Positions 7,947 to 23,925 of a stretch of DNA of 39,017 bases are shown here, piece by piece; within the stretch, counting starts at the first letter, position 1; each line of letters begins with the position of its first letter. The notes below the pieces were generated by a model, which saw only the letters and a program-made list of their open reading frames with translations, did no database searches and was not told the DNA's origin. Source of the stretch: Chitinophagaceae bacterium (GTDB taxonomy: Bacteria > Bacteroidota > Bacteroidia > Cytophagales > JASGCU01); NCBI GenBank assembly GCA_030053935.1, contig JASGCU010000010.1, positions 6,330 to 45,346 of the forward strand, in the 5' to 3' direction. A program made the translations under genes and the position numbers.

Positions 7947-8402
7947 TTACATTCCCATATAATTATCTACTATAACAGGATGTAAGGTTTCTCTATCCAT
8001 CTTTTGTATTTCTGCAAATGAGAAAAATTTTATTTCTTGTATTATCTGTTCTGATAATGGCATTTCTGGATCTTTTCCTAACATTAATGTTCCCATTATT
8101 TTTTTTACTTCAAAAAATAATTCTATTGAATGAATGGGCTTTTGAAGGTACTCATAGAAAAACAAAAATCTTTTTACTTGTATTTTCAGCCCTGTTTCTT
8201 CCACAAACTCTCTTTTGAGATTCTCTTCTACGGACTGTCCAAAAACCATTCCTCCGCCTGGCGGTATCCACATATATTGCTTTTTCCCTACCCCTACATG
8301 TTTCAACAGAAGAATTTTTTTTTCTTGTATATAAATCCCACAAACTCTTATACGTAAATGATCCCCATATAATTTTTCTAATATTGTATGTGGCTCGTTC
8401 AT
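7947..8402 (-). CDS. Nudix hydrolase
   Basis: This 151-residue Nudix-fold protein hydrolyses a nucleoside-diphosphate-X type substrate that cannot be told from the sequence. The Nudix box lies at residues 50-72. The Mg-binding core R-E-x2-E-E-x-G-L (64-72) is complete, but the first conserved Glu of the box is Gln56. The preceding W-I-P-P-G-G-G is typical. The start codon overlaps the stop of the upstream lipoprotein gene by one base (TAATG), so the two are probably translationally coupled. It is last in the minus-strand run beginning with the zinc-binding lipoprotein. Confidence 0.88.
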   Translation of the reverse strand: MNEPHTILEKLYGDHLRIRVCGIYIQEKKILLLKHVGVGKKQYMWIPPGGGMVFGQSVEENLKREFVEETGLKIQVKRFLFFYEYLQKPIHSIELFFEVKKIMGTLMLGKDPEMPLSEQIIQEIKFFSFAEIQKMDRETLHPVIVDNYMGM

Positions 8403-9169
8403 TATTTTATACTATCGTATTTGCTTATTTGTGTATCAAAAAAATTTTCTGATGAAAAATTGAGAGAATCAAATTCATCTAATGTAGTATTTACAGTATC
8501 GTTTTTTTGTGTTTTATTGTTTTCTGAATATATACGTTTAGAAACAAATAATTCTCCAAAAAATTTATTATAATAAAATTGGTCTTCATTATAAGAATAT
8601 TTTATACTATTATAGTCAAAGGAATATTTTGGATATGACTTTTTATCTATTGTCATAAATCGAATACTATCTTTTTTTGATATTTTTGAGGAATCGTGCT
8701 TAAAATGAATATTACTAGACACTAAAGAGTCGGGGATTATAGAAGTAGTAACTGTATCTTTATTTTCTATACTTGGGAAAAACTGGTTTTGTTTTTTTAC
8801 GATATTTATGGTTTTATTTTTATGCTTTTTTGATTTTTTTTTCAATAGCCCGTATGTATTTTTTTCTACGTTATATTTTTTGAGAGGAGTATAATTTGGT
8901 CCGAATAGAGAAAATCTTTCATATCGTATTTGTTCGTAGAGGTGTTGGTGTTTGTCAGAATAGTGATAATCTAAAGAATTTTTTGTTTTGAATAATGTCT
9001 TACAGCTATCACATATTATTTCCATGTATTTTGAGGTAGATTTCAGTGAGGTAGTAGGATATTGTTTGAGTAAGTAGGAGCTTTGATAAGCAGGACATAC
9101 AAGGTTGTAATCACATGCTGAAAAGACAAGTATTACCAGCAAAAAAACATTTTTTTTGAGTAGGGACAT
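8402..9169 (-). CDS. Lipoprotein with a canonical C2H2 zinc-finger motif
   Basis: I do not recognise a named family. The 255-residue protein begins with a lipoprotein signal: basic N-terminus, hydrophobic core, then F-S-A-C, giving lipid-carrying Cys19. A C-P-A-Y motif follows at 25-28. Residues 53-74 fit the classical C2H2 zinc-finger spacing exactly: C53-x2-C56-x3-F60-x5-L66-x2-H69-x4-H74. The rest is Lys-, Ser- and Asn-rich and probably largely disordered, with an aromatic-rich segment near 190-215. C2H2 fingers of this long-loop type are mainly eukaryotic; known bacterial Ros-type fingers have a shorter loop. One on an exported lipoprotein is odd. It lies 38 bases after trhO and overlaps the Nudix start by one base. 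Gene and lipoprotein calls are good; metal binding is inferred from spacing alone. Confidence 0.75.
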   Translation of the reverse strand: MSLLKKNVFLLVILVFSACDYNLVCPAYQSSYLLKQYPTTSLKSTSKYMEIICDSCKTLFKTKNSLDYHYSDKHQHLYEQIRYERFSLFGPNYTPLKKYNVEKNTYGLLKKKSKKHKNKTINIVKKQNQFFPSIENKDTVTTSIIPDSLVSSNIHFKHDSSKISKKDSIRFMTIDKKSYPKYSFDYNSIKYSYNEDQFYYNKFFGELFVSKRIYSENNKTQKNDTVNTTLDEFDSLNFSSENFFDTQISKYDSIK

Positions 9170-9207: not shown

Positions 9208-10194
9208 TCAATTATTTGATATGTTATTGTAAGAAGTTGGTGTTTTTTTCTTCACAACATCTTTATATGGGTTATACCCATTTGTATTTTTTTGATAATA
9301 TCCTGTTCCATCATAAGGTCTTTTATGAGGATTTTGTTGGCATTCGGCGGAGCAGGTACCTTCTAATTTTTCAGCACATTCTTTACAAATAGGCACATGC
9401 TTATTACAAGTAGGATTTGCACAGTTTATCATCTTATCACAGATTTTTTTACAGACATAGCATGAACCTACTATTGTAGGGTTTATTTTATTGACATCTA
9501 CCGCTATTCTACTATCAAATACATAACATTTTCCTTCAAAGTATTCTCCATCTGCTTCTATGCCATATTTTATAATGCCACCGTGAAGTTGGTATACGTT
9601 TTCAAACCCGTTTTCTAAAAGATATGCACTTGCTTTTTCACATTTTATCCCACCAGTACAATAGGTGATAATTTTTTTATTTTGAATAGTTTTTTTGAGT
9701 ACATCTATTTTTTCTTTCAACTCTCTAAAATTTTCGATATCCAAAGTAATTGCATTTTTAAATTTCCCCACTGAATATTCATACTTTGACCTTACATCTA
9801 ATAGGACTGTATCTTTTTCATTGTTTTTTAAAATACTATGCATTTCTTTTGGTTCTATATATGCTCCTGTTTTTTGTATGGGATTTATATAAGGAAGCCC
9901 TGAATGAACAATTTCACGTTTTATTCTGACATGAATTTTTTTAAATACATGAAAATCCACATATTCTATTTTAAATTCTATATGTGCGAATCGTTTATCT
10001 GCTTTGAGATGTTCCATATATTCTTGGCAATTTTCTACAAGTCCGCTTACAGTGCCATTTATTCCTTCTTGTGCGATGATAATTCTTCCGAGTAGTTTTT
10101 TTTCTATACAGTATATATGGTGGGCTTCTCGAAAAGATTCTGTATTATCTATTTGTGTGTAGCAATAGTAGAGTAGAACGCTATATTTTTTCAT
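9208..10194 (-). CDS. trhO: tRNA uridine(34) hydroxylase, rhodanese-domain protein
   Basis: TrhO (YceA family) makes 5-hydroxyuridine at position 34 of certain tRNAs. The sequence has an N-terminal ferredoxin-like domain with the A-Q-E-G-I-N-G-T-V-S-G signature. A rhodanese domain follows with active-site C179 in C-T-G-G-I-K-C (C185 is the second Cys). The tail carries nine Cys, starting C-Y-V-C, as family members do. The open frame extends to 10245 only through a TTG codon. The ATG at 10194 is preferred because the protein then begins M-K-K-Y-S-V-L-L-Y-Y, as homologues do, and because a TTTTG that could be part of a -7 box overlaps the TTG; an ATG at 10221 is the alternative. It lies between the zinc-binding lipoprotein gene and the C2H2 lipoprotein gene. 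Confidence 0.92.
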   Translation of the reverse strand: MKKYSVLLYYCYTQIDNTESFREAHHIYCIEKKLLGRIIIAQEGINGTVSGLVENCQEYMEHLKADKRFAHIEFKIEYVDFHVFKKIHVRIKREIVHSGLPYINPIQKTGAYIEPKEMHSILKNNEKDTVLLDVRSKYEYSVGKFKNAITLDIENFRELKEKIDVLKKTIQNKKIITYCTGGIKCEKASAYLLENGFENVYQLHGGIIKYGIEADGEYFEGKCYVFDSRIAVDVNKINPTIVGSCYVCKKICDKMINCANPTCNKHVPICKECAEKLEGTCSAECQQNPHKRPYDGTGYYQKNTNGYNPYKDVVKKKTPTSYNNISNN

Positions 10195-10321
10195 TTTATT
10201 TTTTGTATTCTTTTCGTACATTTTAAATAATTTATTAATATGCAAAAGTTACATAAACTTTTTATTAAATATAAAATGATATATAAAAAATGAGTCGTAT
10301 TTCTGTTAAAAAATAGGTATT

Positions 10322-11230
10322 TTATTTCAAAGAGCTCACAATAGTTTTCACATTAAAAGAGAACATACCTATATAATTTCCTTCGGGGGAATTAATTTCT
10401 CCCATCGCATCGGAATAGAGTTTTCCTCCTATAGTAAGGGTATGCCCTTTTTCTTTGCATCCTAATATAACAGCTTTCATAGATTTTTCTGATACGGAGG
10501 TTTCTAAAAAAACTGCTTTTACATTTTTGCTTACGATTTCATTCACTATATAGGTTATATCTTTTAAGCCGAAGTCCGATTGTGTGGATATTCCTTGCAA
10601 TCCCATTACTTGTATATTATAAGCATCTCCAAAGTATCCAAAGGCATCGTGGGCTGTTATGAGAATTTTTTGAGATGGTGGTATGGTATTTATTTCTTTT
10701 TTCGCCCATACATCTAATGAATCTAATTGGGAGAGATATGCTATTTCGTTTGTTTTATAAAAATTTGTATGGATAGTGTCAAATGTTTGAAGATAGGAGC
10801 TTATTGTTTTTACTGCTGTTTTCCAAAGTTTTATATCAAACCATACGTGTGGGTCAAAAGAATGAGCAAATGCTGAATTGGTTCTTAATAATTTTTTATT
10901 TATGTCTTTTGTAACAGGTATGACGGGTTTTTGTCTTGCTAATTTTTCAAATACATCTTCCATCTTTCCTTCTAAAAAAAGTCCATTATAAAATACAATA
11001 TCTGATTCTAAAAGGGTGGTTATATCTCCTTGTGTCGTTTTATAGAGATGTGGATCTACTCCTGCTCCCATTAAAAAAGAGGCGGACACGGTATCACCAG
11101 CTATGTTTTTAACAACATCGTATATCATATTGGTTGTGCAGACAATTTTTATTTTTTTTGACTTTATTTCTTTTTTTTCTTCGCAGGATATATTCCATGT
11201 AAGTATAAGAAGAAGGTAGAGTATTCGCAT
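10322..11230 (-). CDS. Zinc-type ABC transporter substrate-binding lipoprotein (cluster A-I)
   Basis: This 302-residue metal-binding protein belongs to the ZnuA/TroA/PsaA family. The signal ends I-S-C, giving lipid-attached Cys16. The four expected metal ligands are His61 (D-P-H), His128 (D-P-H-V-W), His194 (A-H-D-A-F-G-Y-F) and Asp274 (S-D-A-M-G). A His at the third position, rather than Glu, is the pattern of zinc binders such as TroA; the manganese binders PsaA and MntA have Glu there. It lacks the long His-rich loop of enterobacterial ZnuA. It should capture zinc at the membrane and deliver it to an ABC permease, but no permease or ATPase gene lies beside it. It is first in the minus-strand run that includes trhO and the C2H2 lipoprotein. 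Confidence 0.9.
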   Translation of the reverse strand: MRILYLLLILTWNISCEEKKEIKSKKIKIVCTTNMIYDVVKNIAGDTVSASFLMGAGVDPHLYKTTQGDITTLLESDIVFYNGLFLEGKMEDVFEKLARQKPVIPVTKDINKKLLRTNSAFAHSFDPHVWFDIKLWKTAVKTISSYLQTFDTIHTNFYKTNEIAYLSQLDSLDVWAKKEINTIPPSQKILITAHDAFGYFGDAYNIQVMGLQGISTQSDFGLKDITYIVNEIVSKNVKAVFLETSVSEKSMKAVILGCKEKGHTLTIGGKLYSDAMGEINSPEGNYIGMFSFNVKTIVSSLK

Positions 11231-11499: not shown

Positions 11500-14400
11500 T
11501 TATCTTGCTATTTCGAGAGTTCCTGTTACTACCGAAGAATCATCGCCTTTATCAATATGGTAAATATAAGTTCCATTTGATAGGTTTCCATTATTTCCTA
11601 TGTTCAGCCCTTTATTAGATATTCCTTTAAATACTTTGTCGGTATTATTATATCCTTTTTCTTCATAAACAAGTGTTCCTGTAAACATGGAATATATACT
11701 TATTTGATTATTTGGGTATTGATTTATGCATTCTATTACGAACACATCGTTCAGGTTGTCATTATTAGGAGTTATTATTTGGTAAGGGAAAACATCTATT
11801 CCTATTGTGAATTCGGTGGAGTTTGTGCATTTATTTTTATCCCATACTTGTACGGTATAATTACCATATGCTGCTTGGGGGATTTCTATGGTATTGTATG
11901 TATTACTTTGGGTTTTATTTATCCATATTATGCTGTCTATTTCTGTTATTTCGGAGAAAACGAGAGATGCATTTCCGTTATCTTTTGTGCATTGGGAATT
12001 TTTAGTTTTTACTTGAAATATAGGTTTAGAAACAACTTTATTTATGCTAAAAAAGGTTGGTAATGATTGGCATCCGCTTATTCTATCATTTGTTTTAATG
12101 AAATAATTTCCGGAATCTAGGGTATTATTTTGTTGTCCTGAGAATATTATTTGATCGGGGTTTTCTTGGTTGTACCAATCGAATGTATATTGTGCTATGT
12201 TTTGTGGGATTTGGAGTTCTACACTTCCATTTGGGGTTTTACATTGTGTATTATTTGCATGATTTTTTATGATGGGATTTGATACTTTGGTGGGGTTGAA
12301 AATTACTGTGGTAGTATCTATGCTTGTGCATTTACTGCTGTTATTAATAACTATAAGAGTATATTTTTTTTGAGATAGATTGTTGGCTGATAATGAGGAG
12401 CTTATTTTTGGTAGAATAGATAAAAGTTCTGTGTTAAAAGTACCGTCTTGTTTAAGAGGAAGAATTCCTTCGTACCATTCAAAAGAAAAGAGATTAATGT
12501 TTTCGTTATTTTTTATAATGGCATCTAATTGTGCGTTTCCGTTTTTAGGGGGGCAGTTAGATAATGGTTTTATTTTTTTTATAGCAATTTTAGGAGTTTT
12601 TTTTTCATCTTTTATAATAAGAGTTACATAATTTGATATACAATAAATATCTTGTTTATCAAATACTTTTCCATAATATGTTCCACCAGGGAGATTTGAA
12701 AGAGTATATCCGTTATAGGTTGCTTTGGATACAAATGCGTCTATAGTTACGTCATTTGGAGAAGGTCCTACGGGAATACCTTTTTCTAGAGGGTTCCATA
12801 GGATATGATAATCTGTTAGAATCGATTTTCCGGGAGGGATATTTAGAATATTAGTTACCACTAATCCATTAAAAGGTTCATTACATTTGGTATTAGGGGA
12901 GGAGCTTACTATATTTAGATTTAATCTTACAACTGCTTTATTTAAAATTACAAAAGGTTGTGAACTACTACATCCGTTGGTTTTATCTGTAACAAGTACT
13001 GAATACGTTCCCGCACTTAGATTAGATATACTTGTAAAATTAGAATTAAAGATATTTCCTGATTCTGTGTACCAATCGTATTTATAATCGCCTATATTTC
13101 CGTTGAGAGTTCCTACTTGAATTCCTCCATTTGGTTTTGATGTATTACAATTTGTTACATGTCTTATATTTTTTATTTGAATTTGTGGATATTGTATAGA
13201 GGAATCGTTTATGTTAATGGGGATGGTGTATCCTATTGGGCAATTTGCTTTTTTATGGATGGCTTGTAAATAATACTGTCCTTTTCTTAAATTCTTTATT
13301 AGAGAGGTATCAGATGTATATTCTAGTTTTTGAATACCATCATAAAAAGAGTATATATTATAAATATAATTTTGCAAAGAGTCATTTTGTCCGTCTTTTA
13401 GAATTTGTTTTATATCAATAAGTCCATTTGGGGGTTCACAGATTGTGAGATTGTTTTTTTCTATATATTCGGGATTTATTGTTAGCTGTGGTTGTTTGTT
13501 TATAAGAACAGTACTCTGTTCTGATGAGCATCCATTTGTATTGTTTGTGGTTGTAAGAATATAAGTGTTGGCGGGTATGTTATTTAGTATAGTATTTGTG
13601 CTTTCGAATCCGTCTTGGGTATTCCATTGGAAGGAGTGATTTTCATTTTCTTTTTCTAATAGTGTAGCTTTTAATATTCCGTTTGCTTCTCCTGATAGGC
13701 AGCTTTCATCATTTTTTATATTTTCTATGGTAAAGTTAGGATATGTTGGGATATTTTGAATTTGTTCGGATATAAAACTTACGCAGTTTGTTTTTATATG
13801 TGTTACTGTTATACCGTAAGTTGCGCCTGTAAGGTTAGATGCTGTGTATTGGGGATTTATTTGAGAAGCATTAAGTGGTATATTGTTACCTTTGGTCCAA
13901 ACAAATCGGAAGTTTTTTTGGGATATATCGAAAGTGTCTCGGGGAGAAATTGTTTTGTATGTGTATTCGGATAGTCCTGAAAATCTGAGTGAATCTATAA
14001 TGATAGTACCGTTTTCTTTTGTTACTACACATGCGTCGTTGTTTTTTATTCTTTTTCCTATAAATTCTATAGCATTATTTATAGAATCTTTTTCTAAATA
14101 CATTGGTAGGGAAGTGGTGCAGTTGTTTAGGTCATTTACAACGGAGAGAGTATAGAGTCCTTGTTCTTGATTTGTGATAGTTTTTGAGTCATTAATTGTG
14201 AGATTTGTTATATTTATGGTGTCATTGCCTATACCTTTATACCATTTTATTGTATATGGGGTATTATTTGGGGTTATTTCTATAGTATCTATGTTGATTT
14301 TTCCTACCCCTAATGGTTCTCCTCCTTCGCATCCTTTATCTTTTACAGAAGATGTTATGAAAGTAGGGTATGATCCTGTGCTTTGTATTTGTAAAGATGT

Positions 14401-17400
14401 GCTATTCACTGTGCAGTATTTTCCTATGCCTGTGAGTTTTGTTGTTTTTATGATGTATGAATTTGTAGGCAGGTCTGCTATTGTTTTTGTGGTTTCTCCA
14501 ATAATTCTGTTTATGTGGATAGAATCTATTCTATTAGTATTATTTACGGGATAGTAGTGCCATTTATAGTCGGAGATACTTCCGTTGATTCCATTGAGTA
14601 TTATATTTGAGTTTGTAAAAGTGATGGAGCCATTTCCTATAGTGTCTGTGGGGTTACAAATAGTGTTTGGGGTTACTTGTTGTGGTGGTATAGAGATTTG
14701 GGATATGTTCGGAGATGTATTAATAAGAATATTTTTTATATTTTCGCATCCTGCATTATGTGGGGTATTTTTATTTTTTGTAATTTTTATATTATAATAT
14801 CCTGATGAGAGTTGTGCTAATGAGAGCGTATCATTGGAATTGATGATAGTGCTTCCTCTATTTGTGCTTATGAATAAATTTTTATGAGTGGCAGTATCGC
14901 TTATTGATGAGGTGTTTGCTCTATACCATTTTATTTTATAATCTGAATAAGGAGCATTGATAGTTGTTCCATTTTCTGTAAGGTTGAGTTGTATTTGAGC
15001 ATCTCCTTCGTTATATGAGTTTGTGCAAAAAGTAGATATTGTATTGGTAGCTACGTTTAATATTGGGTTTTGAGTATTATTGATAATGCTTCCTAAGCTT
15101 ATTGCTTGGGTGCATTGGGTTGTATCATTTTTTACAGTTACAGAATAAGTTCCGTTGTTTGCTCTTTGGATTCTGCTATTTACAAAAATATTATCTGTTA
15201 CTATTGATGGAGCGGTAACGGATGTTCCATTTTTTCTCCATGTGAAAGAGTAAGGACCGGTGGGTTGATTTGTATTATATTGGTTTACACTTGTTATATT
15301 TACTTCACCGTTTGGGGTTGCGGAAGTGCAGTTTGTGTTATTGGTAATAGTATAATTGGTGCTGTTTGATAGAGTTATGGGGTTATTGAAAGACGGTATT
15401 TGTAAGGTTGCTTCGGAAGAGCATCCTAATCCATTTCCGAGGGAGTCTATAACTTGTATAGTGTAGTATCTTGTATTTCCTCCTTTTATTCCGATTAATG
15501 AGTCTGTATAAATAGAAGTAGTTGGATTTATAGTTTGGGAGACAGAGTTTATTTTTCCTGATCTGATGAGATTGGGGCTTTGCGAATCTATTCCATTGAA
15601 CCATCTATAAAAATATTTTGTATTTATTTGAAGTGCGGTTAATTGGATGTTTATTTTTGCATTCCCGTTATTCCCTGTTTTACAATAATCATCATTTCTT
15701 GCGATAGATATATTAATATTTGGATAGGTGAGATTGGGGTTGATTTGGAGTTCTATGGGTTGTGTTTTGCATCCTGTGTTTTTATGTTCAGCGTATACAT
15801 AATAATATCCTGCGGTTTTATTTTTAATGCGAGCAGTATTTTCTGCTAATATATTCAGTACTGAGGGGTTTTCATTTATTCCACTTACAAAGTACCCTAT
15901 GTTATCGTTTGTAAAAGAGAGATCTTTTTGGGAAGTTTCTGTTTTACTTTGGTACCATCTAAATGAAAAGTTAGTGCTGTCGTTAGAGTATTTTGTGGGT
16001 GATTTTAGGGATTTTGTTTCTATTATGAGTTCTCCATTTGCTGGTGAGCAGTAGGTTTGGTTTACTATTCTTACACTATCTTTAGAGAGATTGGTATTAG
16101 AAGGATCTATTGCGGGTATTATTATATTTTGGGTATAAATACAGTTATTATAGAAATCTACTTCTGCTATAACAGATGAGATGTTTTTCTGTTTATTTGT
16201 TATAGTAGATCTTACTTGAGTTCCTGATGTAAAATTATTTGTTCCTGTTATTTTTTGAAAGTAGATGTTGACGGTGTCTGGGTTTGCGGAATTTTTATTT
16301 TTAATGGATAGGATGACAGCGGTGTCATTATTTGCTATAAGTGTTTCTCCTTTTCTGAATTGTGGATTTGTGGCAAATATCAGATTTGTAGTAGGTATAG
16401 CTCTATCTATGACGGTTATATATTCGTTATTTTGGAATACATCTGCATTTCCACGTGGGAGGAATAGTAAAGAGGATGTATCATTTGCAATAGTGTTTAT
16501 AGATGCTGAAGCGGTGGTGTATGGGTTCCATTGGGTTAATGGGGTGTTAGGAATATTTTTAAAGAAGCCACCAGATTCTTGTTGGGTAGTAGAAACGTTG
16601 AAAGTATTATACCATCGGAATCTTATATTTCCGGGTTGTGTGCTATCACTTGGTATTTTTATGGCTTTTGTTTGGATTTTTCCGTCGGTAGTATATGTGT
16701 TTATATTACAGATATTATTTTCTATTGGATTATAGTATTGGAGGACGGGTGCAAAGGTTTTATTTTTAATAGTATCTGTAGCAGCATAGTGCCAGCATTG
16801 GGTTCCTGTTTTATTTCGGGCTATTGCTGTGTAATACCCTGGTGGGAGGTTATTTATCAAGGTGGTATCTCCTGCGGAGATTGCTTGCAGAGTATTTGTT
16901 TGGGATGCATTTGTAAAATTATGCTGAAATGTTCCAAAATTTCCTAAGGTTCCATTTGTTATGTATTTTGCGGGAAAAGCATATTGTTTTCCATTAAAAT
17001 AAAAAGGTTTTGGGACTAAAATTCCTCTTGCTACACTATCTTGTGTAGAAGGTGTTACCCCATTTCTAAATATGTAGATGTCAAAAGTAGTTATATCATC
17101 ATTTCTTCCTGTTGCAAACCCTAATCTACTCATGTTTTTTGTGGTTGTATTTACACTTAGTGTATCATCTTGTATGGATACGAGAGCATTTCCATTTTCT
17201 GTGCAAGATTCTATTTGTTGCAATGATTTTATTTGGGTAGTTTGTTGTCCTAAAAATCTGAGTTGGAAAGATTCTTGGTAACGACATCTAGAAATAGGGT
17301 CTTGTATCAATAAGGAGTATGTTCCTGCGGGGATTTGTGCTAATATAAGAAAAGTTTTAGATGTGAGTATGCTGTCTTTTCTATAAAGAAGAGGGGAGGA

Positions 17401-20400
17401 GTTGATGCCTGTTTGTAAAAATGTTACAAGGGTATTGTGCGATAAGGAATCAGATGTAGCATTTTTTGTTTTGTCTTGCGTTCCTTCGTACCAAAGATAC
17501 TTATATCCTATTCCATTGTTTCGTAGTCCATTTATTTCGGTATGGATTTCTCCTGAGTTGGTGTTACAATCGCCTGGAATGTTTCCTCCTAATACTGTAT
17601 AATTTGGTGATGCAAAAGATTGGTTTTTTATTTTTCCTGTTCCATTATCTGTAAAGATAGTATTTGGTTTTTGAGGTATATTATTATCTATGGTTATAAA
17701 AAGTGGTTGTATTATTTCACATCGAGAAGTGCTATCTTTTACCCATACTGTATATTTATCGGCAGCTAATCGTATCAAAGAATCTTTTCCGTTTCTCATA
17801 GATATTATCCCAGAGTTAATTGTATATGGTCGTGTAATATGTGAGTTTGGGATAGAGGTATTAGAAAGAGTTATGCTTCCATTTGGGATAATTTTTTGAG
17901 ATGGGTCAGGAGAAGTAATTTCGCCCAAGTACCATTCGTAGGTGTATTCGGGTTTGTACCCTATGGGGGTTCCGTTTGTAAATCCGTTATTTATAACTTC
18001 TACAACAGCAGTTCCATCGGGTGGGTTGCATTCTTGTTGTGCGGTTTTATTTTTCAATTGTGAGTTTATGTTTGGGGTAGATTTTTTTACAACAGTAGAT
18101 CGGGCAGCGAAACACTGTGTAACACTGTCTGTTACTTTTACTGTGTATGTATTTTGGGATATATTTGATAGGTTGCGGGTAATGCAGCTTTGGCAGATAG
18201 GGGTTGTAACTATGTCACTACCCGTGTACCAGTTCCAATTATATTTTCTATTTGGGATTTCATTCAGAATATCAAAGGTTATTTCAGCATTATCGTTTGC
18301 AAGGATAGGAGTGCAGTTTGTATTATCTTTTAGGGTATTTGCTTGTAATTCTATGGTGAGAGCATCTCTATCTGATGTTACGTGGAGGACGGTATCTCTT
18401 GTTCTGCATCCTGTATTTTCATCTACTACTCTTAGGGTATAATATCCTGTATCTAAATTTTGAATAAACGTGGTATCTGCTCCTTGTACTGTTGCAATTG
18501 TAGTAGTACTTGTGCTTCGTACGGATCCTTTTTTGTGAGTGATAGTATCTCCGTTAAATATTTTTTTAGAAGAAAGTGGGGGAATAGTTGTTCCCCAGTA
18601 CCATTGATAATCATAGTTTCCTGTTCCATTTACTATATTTTGTAGTCCAATGCTGCCATTTGGATATAATGGGCTGGGAGTACATACATTTACGGGATAG
18701 GCACTTTCATTTTGAAAAGAAGTATATTCGGGATATCTGATGCTATCTGTAACATTCAGCACAAAAAAAGTTGTGTCGCATCCATTTATATTATCTGCTA
18801 TATTTACTATATATGTCTGTGAAGTGGGGATTTGATTCAATGTATTAGATTGAATATATGGTTTATTTGCTTGTTGGTCGGTGGAAGATATTCTATTTAC
18901 TTCAGGATTATTTATATCTATATTTTGTGCATAATACCATTTATATTGATAGTTTTGAATAGAATTTTGAGCATTAGTAGGTATTGCTTTTAAAACTCCA
19001 TTAAATTTATGAGTTACAGCGGTATCGCATATAGAATTTGTTTTCCTATTTATTGAGAAGGTTGGTTTTTTTAATTTATCTAATAAGAACGCATCTACAA
19101 TATCAGATGCGCATTTTGTTTCGTTATGTATGACACGAAGAGTATAGTTACCACCTCTTAATTGTCCTGTGTTTTTTGTATTAGATATAATTGCACCACT
19201 GTTTTCACGCCACTGAAATATAAAATTATTAGTATCAGAGGTTATGATTGTATTATTATAGAGGAGTCGAACGTTAATTTTCCCATTGGAAATAGTACAT
19301 CCTGTATTTGGAGTGGTTACTATGGAATCCAAGATAGGTTTTATTTGTTCATTTACAACTGTAATATTAGTGCTATCTATACAGTTATTATAAGTATTTG
19401 TTACTTTTACTTTATAGGTGCCTGAATCTAATCCTGATAATACAGATCTGTTAGAGTCGCCTAAATACAAGAAAGATGATACTTTTTCCCATTGATATGT
19501 ATGAGGATTGTTAAGAGCATTTAAAACATTTACAGATATTACCCCTGTGGGTGTTCCACCAAAACAGGAGTTATTTTTTTTTACGAGATTAGTACTGAGT
19601 ACAGGATTTATAATACTGTCTCTGACTGTAATAGGAGTATATTCGGATTCACATCCACCATATTCGGGTTTTAATTTTACTTTTACATAATAAGTAGCTC
19701 CCATTGCTCCATTCCATTTTCCATTCAGATGTGTTAAGGAATCTGCTGTTTCTATTCTTACTATAGAGGATGCATTAGGATAAATATTATTCAATTGAGG
19801 ATTGTACCAATTTATTGTATAATGAGAAATGTCATTAGATATTTCGGGACTGGGTCTTATGAATATTTTTATTTTTCCATTAAAAGAATTTATATCGCAA
19901 GATGTATTTTTAGAGATTTTATGTGGTAAGAATCTAATTATTTGATCGTCTTTCAGAATAGTAACATTAATAGGGGTGGTAGAGCATTTGCTGGATTGGT
20001 TTATTGCTGTAATACTATATTGAACAGTTCCATTGAGTTTTTGAAAGGTGTAAATGGTCGCTATGCTATCTGGATTATAATATGCTACCACTGTTGTATC
20101 GGTTCCATTGGGGGCTGTTAGTCTAATAGAGTATTGGGTAGTTGCGTTATCGTTTTGTGCTTGTATTTTTAGAGTAATACTTCCATTGGGGATTGAGCAG
20201 GAGGTGTGATTTGTTTTTCTGAATGATATTTGAGGAGTATCTAGTTCTGTTTTTATATCAAATATATAAGGGTTTGTTTGGCATCCGGTAATATTATTTC
20301 TATATAAAAAGGAATATCTTCCATTTTGTAAGGTATGAAATATTCCATCTAAAGAACCATAATCAGGAACAATAGTATTATCTCTCACTAAAATAGTAGG

Positions 20401-23400
20401 ATTTCCTTTATATATTCTAAAGTCGGATAATTTAGTATTTCCATTATTGAGATATTCTATAAATTTAAAAGAAACAGCATCCACAAAAGATCCTCTTGTG
20501 TTGTCATCGGGTATTTCTCCGACTAATGTTTTTTGTGATTCTAAAATAAATCTTGTTACGTATTGACCTTCAGGAACAACGTAGAAACCACTGTCTTTTT
20601 CCCATGCATCAACAGATTGTAATTGTTTTTCAAAATTTGCAGAAGAGGGGCTACCTATCTTTATTAACAAATAATCTAAACCTATCGTCTGAGTATATGC
20701 GAGTTTCCATTCAAATTTACTGCCAGGCGATGTAATAATATCGTAATACACTATAGAATCATTTACCTTTATAAATTGACTGTTTGTGTTGGTATGACGG
20801 TATGGGTCTATTCCTAAAGCATTCCCGTCTCTTAGGTAAGTAATAGTACCTTTTGGAGATAACCACTCAGTAAGGTTACTCACCGATATTTCTTGAATAT
20901 TATCCCCATCGAGAGACATAAGAGGAAAATTAAATCCTCCATTACTATTATTATTTTTATAATCTATTCCTATGGGTTGAGAAAATATTTTTATACTATC
21001 AAAAATTTGTAAAGCATTAGATGCATCTAACATTCCATTTTTATTGAAGATATCACAACTGGTATTATTATTTCGTCTGATGTGATTTGTGTCCATAGGG
21101 TATGGGGGGGTACTAAGATCTCTAATGCTGGTGGTATCTGTAGAAGAGCAACCACTGGAATCTTCTGTAACTTTGACTGTGTATCTACCGGGTGGAGCCG
21201 CTAAAAGAGTATTCTTTAAATAACCCGTATTTTGATTTGGTATGGGAAGCGACAGTACATCGGAAAGTCCTCTATAAAAATTATATGTGTAGTTTTTTGA
21301 TGTGCGTGTTAAAACTTGTGCTGTAATGCTCCCATTTCCAAGAAGTACATTTTGTCCAACACAAAAAGTATTATTTGTATGAGAGAGTGAAAACGATGGT
21401 CTATCCGTGCTATCTCTTATCTGTAACGGTATAGGAAGGGATTCACAATTAGATGCGTTTATTCCAACGCATATATAGTTTCCAGAGCGTCTATTTGTCA
21501 GAATATTATTACTTTCTCCTGCTATTATAAACTCGTCTTCTTGTTGTGTTCCCGAATACCATTTATAATCAAGATTACCATTAACTCCTAAAGATTGTGC
21601 TTCTATTATTCCTGAATTTGGGTTAACACAACTGGTTATGTGTTGTGTTACATTGGCTGTAATGACGGGTATTGTTTGTGTAGACGTTACAGTTTTTGAT
21701 TTTTCAGATTGGCATCCTGATATATTATTTTTTACGATAACTTTATAAGGAAATGCACTCAAGGAAGTAGCTTTAGATCCGTATGATATTTGTTCTAAAT
21801 CGTAATACCAGTTAATTTCATAATCTGTAACAGGTAGTGTTGTAGCGGTATCAAGGGAAGAGTTATAAATAGATACTTGTAACTCTCCATCAGGGTTGGC
21901 ACAATTGGTCAGAGGATGAGTTTCTTTTAGTTGAAAATAAGGATTATTTGTTATTTTTTTGATGAGCAGTGTATCAGATTGGGAACAATTAGTATTTTGT
22001 TTTTGGACTAGTACTGTATAAAGAGAATCTTTCATAGAAGTAGCAGTATGTCCTAATATAATAGATTCTACATTGGTGTTATTTGCATAATACCAATTAA
22101 AATCATAACCATCGGTTGTTTCTTCTTTAATGAGAGGGGCTGTCCCTTCTATTTTTGCATACTCTACTCTAAATTTTTCCGTATTTTCATTAGAAAAAAA
22201 TCTGATTTGTATTATTATATCATCAAGAGAAGCAGAAGTAGTAGGTGTGATAGTAAATGAATTGTTGTAAGTTCCAAAGTTTCCCGATACTTTTGGGCAA
22301 GTCCCATTACATAATGTATTAGAAAAATCTTCCCCGTTTCGAGAAACCCATACCTCAAATCTATCTTCTGTCTCAAAACTTCCTAAGGCTCGTATGATTA
22401 AACTCACTGTCACATCTGATTTCGCTTCGTTAGTAATGATTCTACCTGTAAGATTATTGGTATTACTCCAAGAAGAACCATTATAGGAAGTTCCTAAATG
22501 TAATACAGTGGCATCAGTAGAAGTACTGTTGTTTGTGTTCGTTATATCACTATTAGTATTGATTATTTCTATAAATTTATTACCGTTGAGGGAATTAATT
22601 TTTGCTGATGCAGCATTATTTTTAAAAACCCCCCATATATTTTCTGTAGTACTGTTTGTACTGTTTTGTGCATTGTTTGCTTCTGTATCAAAATTCTGCT
22701 CCCATAATACAGTTTTTCCACCTGAGTATTTTTCAATCCATAATTTTGCAGAGCCATTATTGGGTTTGGTATTATCACATTTATAGTTGTTACTTATTTT
22801 TAATTTTTTAAGATTAAATTTTTTACATCCTACATTTATATTTACCCAAGCAGTATCACATTTTCCAAAACAACTCGTCCCATCAGGAACATCACATATC
22901 TGATATTGGAGTGAATCTTTACCGGAAAAATATATATTAGGAACATAGACCAATGAATCTCCCACAATACTCACAGAACCATTACTTGGAGGAGTTGTTA
23001 TCTGAGTAAGGTAGGTAGCAAGTGTATTTATGTCATTTTTTAATACAGGTAAAGATATTGTGGTATCGGCATTCACATTATAAGAATCATTTGTAGCAGA
23101 AACAGTAGCATTTGTTTCTAAACAAATGGTTTGAACACTTGTTATATTGGTATTTTGAGTCGCAATAAATCCGATATTTGCTGCTGCTAATTGAGAACTT
23201 GAAAAACCGGATTCATTAGTTATGTTTCCTGTTTTTTTTAATACCAATCCACCATTTATATAGAGTTCTAAGGTATGAGATCCTCCTCCATTAGGTATCC
23301 AAACGATAGTAGCCGCATAACAAGTCCCATCAGATATATCATTCTTAGTAGGATGAAGACGAGCAGTAGTCACATTTCCTGATGGAGTATTCAAATTTTC

Positions 23401-23925
23401 AGGAGAACAAACATTTCCATTATAAAAAAGAGCCGCATGATCGTATGATGGTTCTAATTGAGTACAGGCATTCTGACCTTGGTACAAATCAAATTCTAAA
23501 TTAATAGAGGGAGATATTTTTGAATTTTGTAAAGTTCCCGTTCCGAATGCGTACGGCTTATCACTTATAGCATCTGTTCCTCTGTTGTCTCCTTGTATCA
23601 CGAAGGCAAAACCCTCCCCAGCTAATGAGCCTTGATCACCTGTATGAAAGGTAAAATCAACTCGGAATGCAGATGATAAATCTACCGTAGAAGGAAACCA
23701 AACCCTTGTAAATTCTCCCGCATTAGCACTCCCATCTGATAATTGATAACATCTAGTAGAAAATTGAACCGCATTATTTTCCGGTTGTCCGGGCTGAACA
23801 ATATTATTAAAAGTAAGCCCATTATTTCCTAAACGAGTGTAGTTATTGTAAGAACTGGGAACCTGAGCATATAAAAAATTTGTTATTCCTATTGTTAATA
23901 ATAAAAGTAGTATTTTAGTCCTCAT
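11500..23925 (-). CDS. Giant SprB-like surface protein: L-type lectin, about 30 Ig-like modules, T9SS type B sorting domain
   Basis: This 4141-residue protein is probably exported by T9SS and displayed on the surface. A signal peptide (1-20) is followed by an L-type-lectin-like domain (about 21-275, with G-E-G-F-A-F-V-I-Q-G and L-E-F-D-L-Y). A cadherin/Ig-like domain lies at about 280-365 (P-V-L-K-N-D). About 30 divergent modules of roughly 80-130 residues follow. Each has an early Cys before an N-G turn, a central aromatic W-Y-x-G strand, an L-x-x-G-x-Y strand and a late G-C, as in SprB-type repeats. Two longer non-repeat insertions lie near 405-595 and 968-1195. The last 97 residues (Y-Q-I-I-T-P-N-N-D-N-L-N-D onward) are the gliding-motility-associated C-terminal domain, the type B T9SS signal. 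SprB of Flavobacterium is a gliding adhesin; an adhesion role here is inferred. No sprF/porP-like gene is adjacent. Confidence 0.93.
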   Translation of the reverse strand: MRTKILLLLLTIGITNFLYAQVPSSYNNYTRLGNNGLTFNNIVQPGQPENNAVQFSTRCYQLSDGSANAGEFTRVWFPSTVDLSSAFRVDFTFHTGDQGSLAGEGFAFVIQGDNRGTDAISDKPYAFGTGTLQNSKISPSINLEFDLYQGQNACTQLEPSYDHAALFYNGNVCSPENLNTPSGNVTTARLHPTKNDISDGTCYAATIVWIPNGGGSHTLELYINGGLVLKKTGNITNESGFSSSQLAAANIGFIATQNTNITSVQTICLETNATVSATNDSYNVNADTTISLPVLKNDINTLATYLTQITTPPSNGSVSIVGDSLVYVPNIYFSGKDSLQYQICDVPDGTSCFGKCDTAWVNINVGCKKFNLKKLKISNNYKCDNTKPNNGSAKLWIEKYSGGKTVLWEQNFDTEANNAQNSTNSTTENIWGVFKNNAASAKINSLNGNKFIEIINTNSDITNTNNSTSTDATVLHLGTSYNGSSWSNTNNLTGRIITNEAKSDVTVSLIIRALGSFETEDRFEVWVSRNGEDFSNTLCNGTCPKVSGNFGTYNNSFTITPTTSASLDDIIIQIRFFSNENTEKFRVEYAKIEGTAPLIKEETTDGYDFNWYYANNTNVESIILGHTATSMKDSLYTVLVQKQNTNCSQSDTLLIKKITNNPYFQLKETHPLTNCANPDGELQVSIYNSSLDTATTLPVTDYEINWYYDLEQISYGSKATSLSAFPYKVIVKNNISGCQSEKSKTVTSTQTIPVITANVTQHITSCVNPNSGIIEAQSLGVNGNLDYKWYSGTQQEDEFIIAGESNNILTNRRSGNYICVGINASNCESLPIPLQIRDSTDRPSFSLSHTNNTFCVGQNVLLGNGSITAQVLTRTSKNYTYNFYRGLSDVLSLPIPNQNTGYLKNTLLAAPPGRYTVKVTEDSSGCSSTDTTSIRDLSTPPYPMDTNHIRRNNNTSCDIFNKNGMLDASNALQIFDSIKIFSQPIGIDYKNNNSNGGFNFPLMSLDGDNIQEISVSNLTEWLSPKGTITYLRDGNALGIDPYRHTNTNSQFIKVNDSIVYYDIITSPGSKFEWKLAYTQTIGLDYLLIKIGSPSSANFEKQLQSVDAWEKDSGFYVVPEGQYVTRFILESQKTLVGEIPDDNTRGSFVDAVSFKFIEYLNNGNTKLSDFRIYKGNPTILVRDNTIVPDYGSLDGIFHTLQNGRYSFLYRNNITGCQTNPYIFDIKTELDTPQISFRKTNHTSCSIPNGSITLKIQAQNDNATTQYSIRLTAPNGTDTTVVAYYNPDSIATIYTFQKLNGTVQYSITAINQSSKCSTTPINVTILKDDQIIRFLPHKISKNTSCDINSFNGKIKIFIRPSPEISNDISHYTINWYNPQLNNIYPNASSIVRIETADSLTHLNGKWNGAMGATYYVKVKLKPEYGGCESEYTPITVRDSIINPVLSTNLVKKNNSCFGGTPTGVISVNVLNALNNPHTYQWEKVSSFLYLGDSNRSVLSGLDSGTYKVKVTNTYNNCIDSTNITVVNEQIKPILDSIVTTPNTGCTISNGKINVRLLYNNTIITSDTNNFIFQWRENSGAIISNTKNTGQLRGGNYTLRVIHNETKCASDIVDAFLLDKLKKPTFSINRKTNSICDTAVTHKFNGVLKAIPTNAQNSIQNYQYKWYYAQNIDINNPEVNRISSTDQQANKPYIQSNTLNQIPTSQTYIVNIADNINGCDTTFFVLNVTDSIRYPEYTSFQNESAYPVNVCTPSPLYPNGSIGLQNIVNGTGNYDYQWYWGTTIPPLSSKKIFNGDTITHKKGSVRSTSTTTIATVQGADTTFIQNLDTGYYTLRVVDENTGCRTRDTVLHVTSDRDALTIELQANTLKDNTNCTPILANDNAEITFDILNEIPNRKYNWNWYTGSDIVTTPICQSCITRNLSNISQNTYTVKVTDSVTQCFAARSTVVKKSTPNINSQLKNKTAQQECNPPDGTAVVEVINNGFTNGTPIGYKPEYTYEWYLGEITSPDPSQKIIPNGSITLSNTSIPNSHITRPYTINSGIISMRNGKDSLIRLAADKYTVWVKDSTSRCEIIQPLFITIDNNIPQKPNTIFTDNGTGKIKNQSFASPNYTVLGGNIPGDCNTNSGEIHTEINGLRNNGIGYKYLWYEGTQDKTKNATSDSLSHNTLVTFLQTGINSSPLLYRKDSILTSKTFLILAQIPAGTYSLLIQDPISRCRYQESFQLRFLGQQTTQIKSLQQIESCTENGNALVSIQDDTLSVNTTTKNMSRLGFATGRNDDITTFDIYIFRNGVTPSTQDSVARGILVPKPFYFNGKQYAFPAKYITNGTLGNFGTFQHNFTNASQTNTLQAISAGDTTLINNLPPGYYTAIARNKTGTQCWHYAATDTIKNKTFAPVLQYYNPIENNICNINTYTTDGKIQTKAIKIPSDSTQPGNIRFRWYNTFNVSTTQQESGGFFKNIPNTPLTQWNPYTTASASINTIANDTSSLLFLPRGNADVFQNNEYITVIDRAIPTTNLIFATNPQFRKGETLIANNDTAVILSIKNKNSANPDTVNIYFQKITGTNNFTSGTQVRSTITNKQKNISSVIAEVDFYNNCIYTQNIIIPAIDPSNTNLSKDSVRIVNQTYCSPANGELIIETKSLKSPTKYSNDSTNFSFRWYQSKTETSQKDLSFTNDNIGYFVSGINENPSVLNILAENTARIKNKTAGYYYVYAEHKNTGCKTQPIELQINPNLTYPNINISIARNDDYCKTGNNGNAKINIQLTALQINTKYFYRWFNGIDSQSPNLIRSGKINSVSQTINPTTSIYTDSLIGIKGGNTRYYTIQVIDSLGNGLGCSSEATLQIPSFNNPITLSNSTNYTITNNTNCTSATPNGEVNITSVNQYNTNQPTGPYSFTWRKNGTSVTAPSIVTDNIFVNSRIQRANNGTYSVTVKNDTTQCTQAISLGSIINNTQNPILNVATNTISTFCTNSYNEGDAQIQLNLTENGTTINAPYSDYKIKWYRANTSSISDTATHKNLFISTNRGSTIINSNDTLSLAQLSSGYYNIKITKNKNTPHNAGCENIKNILINTSPNISQISIPPQQVTPNTICNPTDTIGNGSITFTNSNIILNGINGSISDYKWHYYPVNNTNRIDSIHINRIIGETTKTIADLPTNSYIIKTTKLTGIGKYCTVNSTSLQIQSTGSYPTFITSSVKDKGCEGGEPLGVGKINIDTIEITPNNTPYTIKWYKGIGNDTINITNLTINDSKTITNQEQGLYTLSVVNDLNNCTTSLPMYLEKDSINNAIEFIGKRIKNNDACVVTKENGTIIIDSLRFSGLSEYTYKTISPRDTFDISQKNFRFVWTKGNNIPLNASQINPQYTASNLTGATYGITVTHIKTNCVSFISEQIQNIPTYPNFTIENIKNDESCLSGEANGILKATLLEKENENHSFQWNTQDGFESTNTILNNIPANTYILTTTNNTNGCSSEQSTVLINKQPQLTINPEYIEKNNLTICEPPNGLIDIKQILKDGQNDSLQNYIYNIYSFYDGIQKLEYTSDTSLIKNLRKGQYYLQAIHKKANCPIGYTIPININDSSIQYPQIQIKNIRHVTNCNTSKPNGGIQVGTLNGNIGDYKYDWYTESGNIFNSNFTSISNLSAGTYSVLVTDKTNGCSSSQPFVILNKAVVRLNLNIVSSSPNTKCNEPFNGLVVTNILNIPPGKSILTDYHILWNPLEKGIPVGPSPNDVTIDAFVSKATYNGYTLSNLPGGTYYGKVFDKQDIYCISNYVTLIIKDEKKTPKIAIKKIKPLSNCPPKNGNAQLDAIIKNNENINLFSFEWYEGILPLKQDGTFNTELLSILPKISSSLSANNLSQKKYTLIVINNSSKCTSIDTTTVIFNPTKVSNPIIKNHANNTQCKTPNGSVELQIPQNIAQYTFDWYNQENPDQIIFSGQQNNTLDSGNYFIKTNDRISGCQSLPTFFSINKVVSKPIFQVKTKNSQCTKDNGNASLVFSEITEIDSIIWINKTQSNTYNTIEIPQAAYGNYTVQVWDKNKCTNSTEFTIGIDVFPYQIITPNNDNLNDVFVIECINQYPNNQISIYSMFTGTLVYEEKGYNNTDKVFKGISNKGLNIGNNGNLSNGTYIYHIDKGDDSSVVTGTLEIAR

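Follow-up and report, generated by a model that had tools for sequence, protein, structure and literature searches.

A candidate C2H2-type zinc knuckle inserted into the N-terminal linker of a Cytophagales envelope lipoprotein

The stretch of DNA analysed here, referred to as the window, comprises 39,017 nucleotides of contig JASGCU010000010.1 from a Chitinophagaceae bacterium (assembly GCA_030053935.1; Cytophagales in the GTDB lineage). Our subject is a gene at 8402..9169 on the minus strand which encodes a putative lipoprotein of 255 amino acids with a C2H2 zinc-finger motif near its N-terminus. The gene belongs to a tight run on the same strand, in the order ZnuA-type metal-binding protein (PF01297, E 9e-72; 10322..11230), rhodanese-type TrhO/UPF0176 protein with a Cys-rich C-terminal domain (9208..10245), lipoprotein and NUDIX hydrolase (7947..8402). 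A gap of 39 bases separates the TrhO/UPF0176 gene from the lipoprotein gene, while the ATG of the NUDIX hydrolase gene overlaps the stop codon of the latter. Judging by this spacing, the four genes probably form one transcription unit with the ZnuA-type gene as its first gene. Further upstream, a single open reading frame (ORF) of 4141 amino acids at 11500-23925 on the minus strand encodes a secreted protein, probably a type IX secretion adhesin.

Translation of 8402-9169 (minus strand) yields a precursor that begins with MSLLKKNVFLLVILVFSA-C19-DYNLV-C25PAY. Residues 1-19 (9113..9169, minus strand) form a predicted type II (lipoprotein) signal peptide with the lipobox VFSA-C19, and the lipoprotein assignment made in the first-pass annotation of the window holds. 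The putative lipidation site Cys19 is invariant in an alignment of the protein family to which the lipoprotein belongs. It is followed by the family signature C25-P-A-Y (residues 25-28; 9086..9097, minus strand), in which C25 is invariant and Y28 nearly invariant. Only four Cys are present in the 255 residues, namely the lipid-bearing C19, C25, C53 and C56. We infer export of the protein and lipidation at C19, its most likely location being the periplasmic side of the outer membrane. The surface-export (LES) signal of Bacteroidetes is located just after the lipidated Cys and reads K-(D/E)2, SDDDD or SDDFE (PMC5080379). Neither K-(D/E)2 nor an SDDDD or SDDFE-like stretch was found after C19, where the sequence reads DYNLV, when judged by the Bacteroidetes rule rather than by one for Cytophagales. 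A periplasmic-facing anchor is the default assumption, because the residues after C19 form no described Bacteroidetes surface-export signal.

Pfam and NCBIfam searches with the complete lipoprotein returned no match, and a whole-protein homologue search across genome contigs and viral contigs revealed no direct homologue. The family was reached via weak N-terminal matches in relatives. Its hallmark in the alignment is a lipobox Cys followed by C-x5-CPAY(Q/N/H)S, and the window's lipoprotein, a divergent member and the sole copy in its genome, has both the lipobox and C-x5-C-P-A-Y-x-S. With CPAY relatives such as L112, L079 and L069 it shares the lipobox Cys, C-P-A-Y-x-S, F-S-x-F..P, K-N-x-Y, a Lys-rich stretch and a Y-N-x-(D/E)-Q-x-x-Y motif. 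The family profile places its core at residues 79-228 (8486..8935, minus strand), which include FSLFG..P...KNTYG, the Lys-rich stretch and YNEDQFYYNKFFGELFV. Of 391 genomes of the order, 81 gave matches in a profile search with a loose threshold, and a pattern-based scan gave 29 named loci, mainly in Cyclobacteriaceae, Flammeovirgaceae and Roseivirga-type metagenome-assembled genomes and isolates. A sample of 395 genomes of the class contained four family matches besides this genome, all within the same order, and the family appears to be restricted to Cytophagales. No Pfam or NCBIfam model matches it above cut-off, and the ispG, SRAP, hydrolase and DinB genes adjoining its loci do not suggest a function. 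In two relatives (L007 and L012), the CPAY lipoprotein gene is located directly 3' of a NUDIX hydrolase gene; in the window the order is the opposite, with the lipoprotein gene directly 5' of the NUDIX gene. The second Cys, six residues beyond the lipidated one, is invariant in the family though its members have no further Cys.

What sets the window's lipoprotein apart from the CPAY relatives is an insertion of 42 residues (37-78; 8936..9061, minus strand) that bears the entire finger and has no counterpart in the relatives examined. A family profile made from 47 relatives, with the lipoprotein under study left out, matched it over residues 8-36 and again over 79-228 (38.4 bits for the latter, the C-terminal core), and skipped residues 37-78. 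When residues 40-82 were deleted, the two matches merged and the score rose to 85.9 bits, compared to 65.3 for the whole protein. In an alignment of 18 members, all relatives show a gap at the finger, and the insert by itself shows no similarity to the CPAY family. No Cys C-terminal to CPAY occurs in any family ORF recovered; C53 and C56 are the only Cys that the rest of the family lacks, and both are at zinc-ligand positions. These comparisons show the finger to be a lineage-specific gain by insertion into the linker between CPAY motif and core. No direct repeat of at least 6 bases was found flanking the insert, and no second C2H2 match that could have been its source was found in the same genome. 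Its guanine-cytosine content is 31% compared to 25% for the rest, a difference on a segment too short for interpretation. Unrelated insertions are present at the same linker in the relatives L083, L103 and L121. The first-pass annotation had named homologues with the same C-P-A-Y start but no conserved C/C/H/H as a result that would speak against the finger. About 50 such relatives do exist, and none has it; however, the finger is missing from them as a whole insertion and not through substituted residues, which rules out an ancestral, family-wide zinc role of CPAY lipoproteins but not the finger itself.

Residues 49-76 read MEIIC53DSC56KTLF60KTKNSL66DYH69YSDKH74QH, with the codons of the motif C53-x2-C56-x3-F60-x5-L66-x2-H69-x4-H74 at 9013-8948 (8948..9013, minus strand). 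The classical C2H2 pattern C-x2-4-C-x12-H-x3-5-H is present together with its hydrophobic core positions F60 and L66, and the hydrophobic residue I51 is located two positions ahead of C53. On retranslation, the coordinates, residue numbers and C2H2 consensus including the core hydrophobics were all exactly as first annotated.

For the amino-acid composition of genes in the window, a proteome of genome size should contain the strict H-x4-H pattern about 0.00016 times, and the pattern with H-x3-5-H 0.0005 times. A DNA-level scan for the strict motif in all frames of the 391 genomes, with the reversed pattern as control, gave 31 matches versus 22, and the reading frame of the matches was checked at their loci. 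The excess of nine consists of seven matches in two genomes of family f21 (small genomes of the same order), which lie in C2H2 proteins, the lipoprotein described here and one match in genome G209. The remaining 22, as many as in the control, fall in interrupted frames or in the shadow of longer ORFs, and none lies in the main frame. Strict matches within genes are thus, apart from the lipoprotein, limited to C2H2 array proteins and one doubtful ORF, and occurrence of the motif by chance within this genome is unlikely. The G209 match (L152:1234-1683, minus strand) is a single C2H2 motif in a doubtful ORF of 150 amino acids; the contig is short, the genome incomplete, and eukaryotic contamination is possible.

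To place the finger among known profiles, equal-length peptides were compared with the Pfam C2H2 models, namely the lipoprotein finger, f21 fingers, the G209 peptide and 14 stop-free background peptides. The lipoprotein finger (26/27-mer) matched zf-met (E 0.0041) and zf-C2H2_4 (E ~0.008-0.009) and no other Pfam model, whereas four f21 fingers, like the G209 peptide, matched C2H2 models with E 7e-7 to 0.0042. A genuine array finger of L145 scores like the lipoprotein finger (E 0.0042), and the L145 fingers taken singly are also under cut-off. Twelve of the 14 background peptides matched no C2H2 model, while two did (L149, E 0.00058; L155, E 0.022). A PDB sequence search gave weak matches, mostly to eukaryotic C2H2 proteins. 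Together, the profile evidence is supportive of a finger but not decisive, and the score of the lipoprotein is not outstanding in whole-genome scans.

The interpretation that we favour, though we are evenly divided about it, is that a C2H2-type zinc knuckle was added to the N-terminal linker of a single-copy envelope lipoprotein in this lineage only. A block of 42 residues with one C2H2-type finger has entered the linker that joins CPAY to the conserved core. C53, C56, H69 and H74 would bind one Zn2+, giving a small structural knuckle, which might stiffen the linker between lipid anchor and core or offer a protein contact. This is in line with the full consensus, with the split of the family profile exactly around the finger, with the near absence of other strict in-gene matches and with the ZnuA-type gene in the probable same unit. 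The chances that the finger binds zinc seem about even. DNA binding seems unlikely, because the lipoprotein is predicted to be exported and the finger is single. The first-pass annotation had offered a zinc sensor, a zinc store or a structural knuckle as possible roles. While the full C2H2 consensus in a lipoprotein stood up, sensor and store are unsupported by any positive evidence. The structural knuckle is left, together with an interaction knuckle, as the remaining reading. More demanding is the notion that an outer-membrane lipoprotein has acquired a classical C2H2 finger which is functional, loaded with zinc and at work outside the cytoplasm; we regard this as improbable. If it were true, the C2H2 fold would have been reused as an extracytoplasmic zinc-stabilised module. 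The insertion moreover gives a clean comparison with and without finger inside one protein family.

Several results weigh against a zinc knuckle, and many of them fit the alternative that in this lineage a hydrophilic, AT-rich and fast-evolving linker grew longer and only by coincidence reads as a C2H2 consensus, being disordered and free of metal. The choice of the motif was made post hoc in a large scan, in which a coincidence of a few per thousand per genome may still occur, and the insert is carried by no second sequence (about 50 relatives are without it). The hidden Markov model scores are weak: the 26-mer stays under the curated cut-offs of zf-met (17.8 versus 21.2 bits) and zf-C2H2_4 (17.2 versus 27 bits), PF00096 matches nothing in the genome at E <= 1, and the genome-wide E of 0.325 for zf-C2H2_4 is equalled by background in many genomes. 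AlphaFold2 run without an alignment was uninformative for the full-length lipoprotein (predicted local distance difference test, pLDDT, 35). For residues 45-88 (44 amino acids), it gave two helices instead of a beta-beta-alpha fold (pLDDT 70, predicted template modelling score 0.35), in which C56 and H69, 13 residues apart, lie within one long helix and the zinc site is not formed; this model had no fold match in the PDB. Single-sequence structure predictions without metal tend toward helices, and the model may count only slightly against the finger. The tolerance of other insertions at the linker and the two background peptides with C2H2 matches also speak for coincidence. It is opposed by the composition expectation of only ~0.0002-0.0005 per proteome, by the lack of any other chance match in the frame of a gene among ~390 genomes, and by the position of the only two gained Cys at zinc-ligand sites with a fitting F and L core. 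We rank a fortuitous consensus clearly below the zinc knuckle, as a doubtful explanation that nevertheless deserves attention. If no zinc is bound, the protein would be a useful caution that fast-evolving linkers can come to display a perfect consensus by chance.

Two further explanations, both of which we consider quite improbable, would assign other roles to the insert. The C-x2-C could be a periplasmic redox or disulfide motif, formed by C53 and C56 or by one of them with the invariant C25, both His being incidental. A C53-C56 disulfide is conceivable because the periplasm is oxidising, which also counts against zinc binding, and C25 is invariant and unpaired in the relatives. There is, on the other hand, no thioredoxin-like fold or Pfam match, and a redox motif does not account for the exact distances to both His or for the F/L core. 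Alternatively, the lipid-anchored finger may be a zinc-handling accessory that buffers zinc or hands it to the ZnuA-type protein, whose gene, on the same strand, is the second one upstream, with short gaps in between. Both ABC-3 permease genes of the genome are on other contigs and no ZnuA was found beside either, and the ZnuA-type protein may be a shared binding protein. Against such a role, the TrhO and NUDIX proteins of the same unit have no part in zinc uptake, and neither a finger nor a ZnuA neighbour occurs in the rest of the family at the loci seen. Single C2H2 fingers, moreover, usually hold zinc too tightly for buffering. As the ZnuA neighbourhood was not seen at the trhO or CPAY loci of relatives, it says little in favour of a zinc role, and we rejected it as proof of one.

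Classical long-loop C2H2 fingers are almost always discussed as DNA-binding. In bacteria they are described as practically absent, with 0.003% of genes by one count (PMC3541406). With the families PF00096, PF13894 and PF12874 the lipoprotein finger shares C-x2-C-x3-F-x5-L-x2-H-x4-H, the 12-residue spacer and the hydrophobic residue two before the first Cys. Unlike them, it is below cut-off, single and part of an apparently exported protein rather than of a cytoplasmic or nuclear DNA-binding one, and its fold and zinc binding are putative. The prokaryotic Ros/MucR finger has the same ligands in bacteria but another fold and nine residues between the second Cys and the first His (PMC9779718), and the 12-residue spacer of the exported lipoprotein rules out this identity. 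AFV1p06 of an archaeal virus is likewise a classical finger outside eukaryotes; it differs in being virus-encoded and DNA-binding, with Glu as fourth ligand, and is not an envelope protein (PMC3541406).

Parallels within the same order are provided by family f21, in which five of 21 genomes contain true C2H2 proteins. Five of the distinct proteins begin with a lipoprotein-type signal, for example LMLIS-CSTNN or LPLIAS-CSGLM (L144:1480-2661, L145:1462-2148, L173:1429-2346 and L195:1408-2508, all minus strand; L205:2010-3017, plus strand), and two of the five also carry ankyrin repeats. The combination of lipobox and C2H2 fingers recurs in f21, in proteins that are probably host-directed. Like the lipoprotein of the window, the f21 C2H2 proteins are Cytophagales proteins with classical long-loop fingers, several with a lipoprotein-type signal; they differ in having multiple fingers, some with ankyrin repeats, and no CPAY scaffold. 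Cardinium is also reported to have putative zinc finger proteins, which, in the portion of that report considered here, are not linked to lipoprotein signals (PMC12560110). Given the lipobox-bearing f21 proteins, an exported C2H2 protein is less surprising in this order, although they are unrelated to the CPAY scaffold. If the finger of the lipoprotein is functional, they and the ankyrin-C2H2 proteins of f21 would together with it point to exported, lipid-anchored C2H2 proteins as a recurrent Cytophagales theme. Genome G219 (1.5 Mb; L168, L191, L205 and L206) contains 33 C2H2 matches, which are spread over several genes of large contigs and include six-finger arrays with TGEKP linkers that closely resemble eukaryotic ones.
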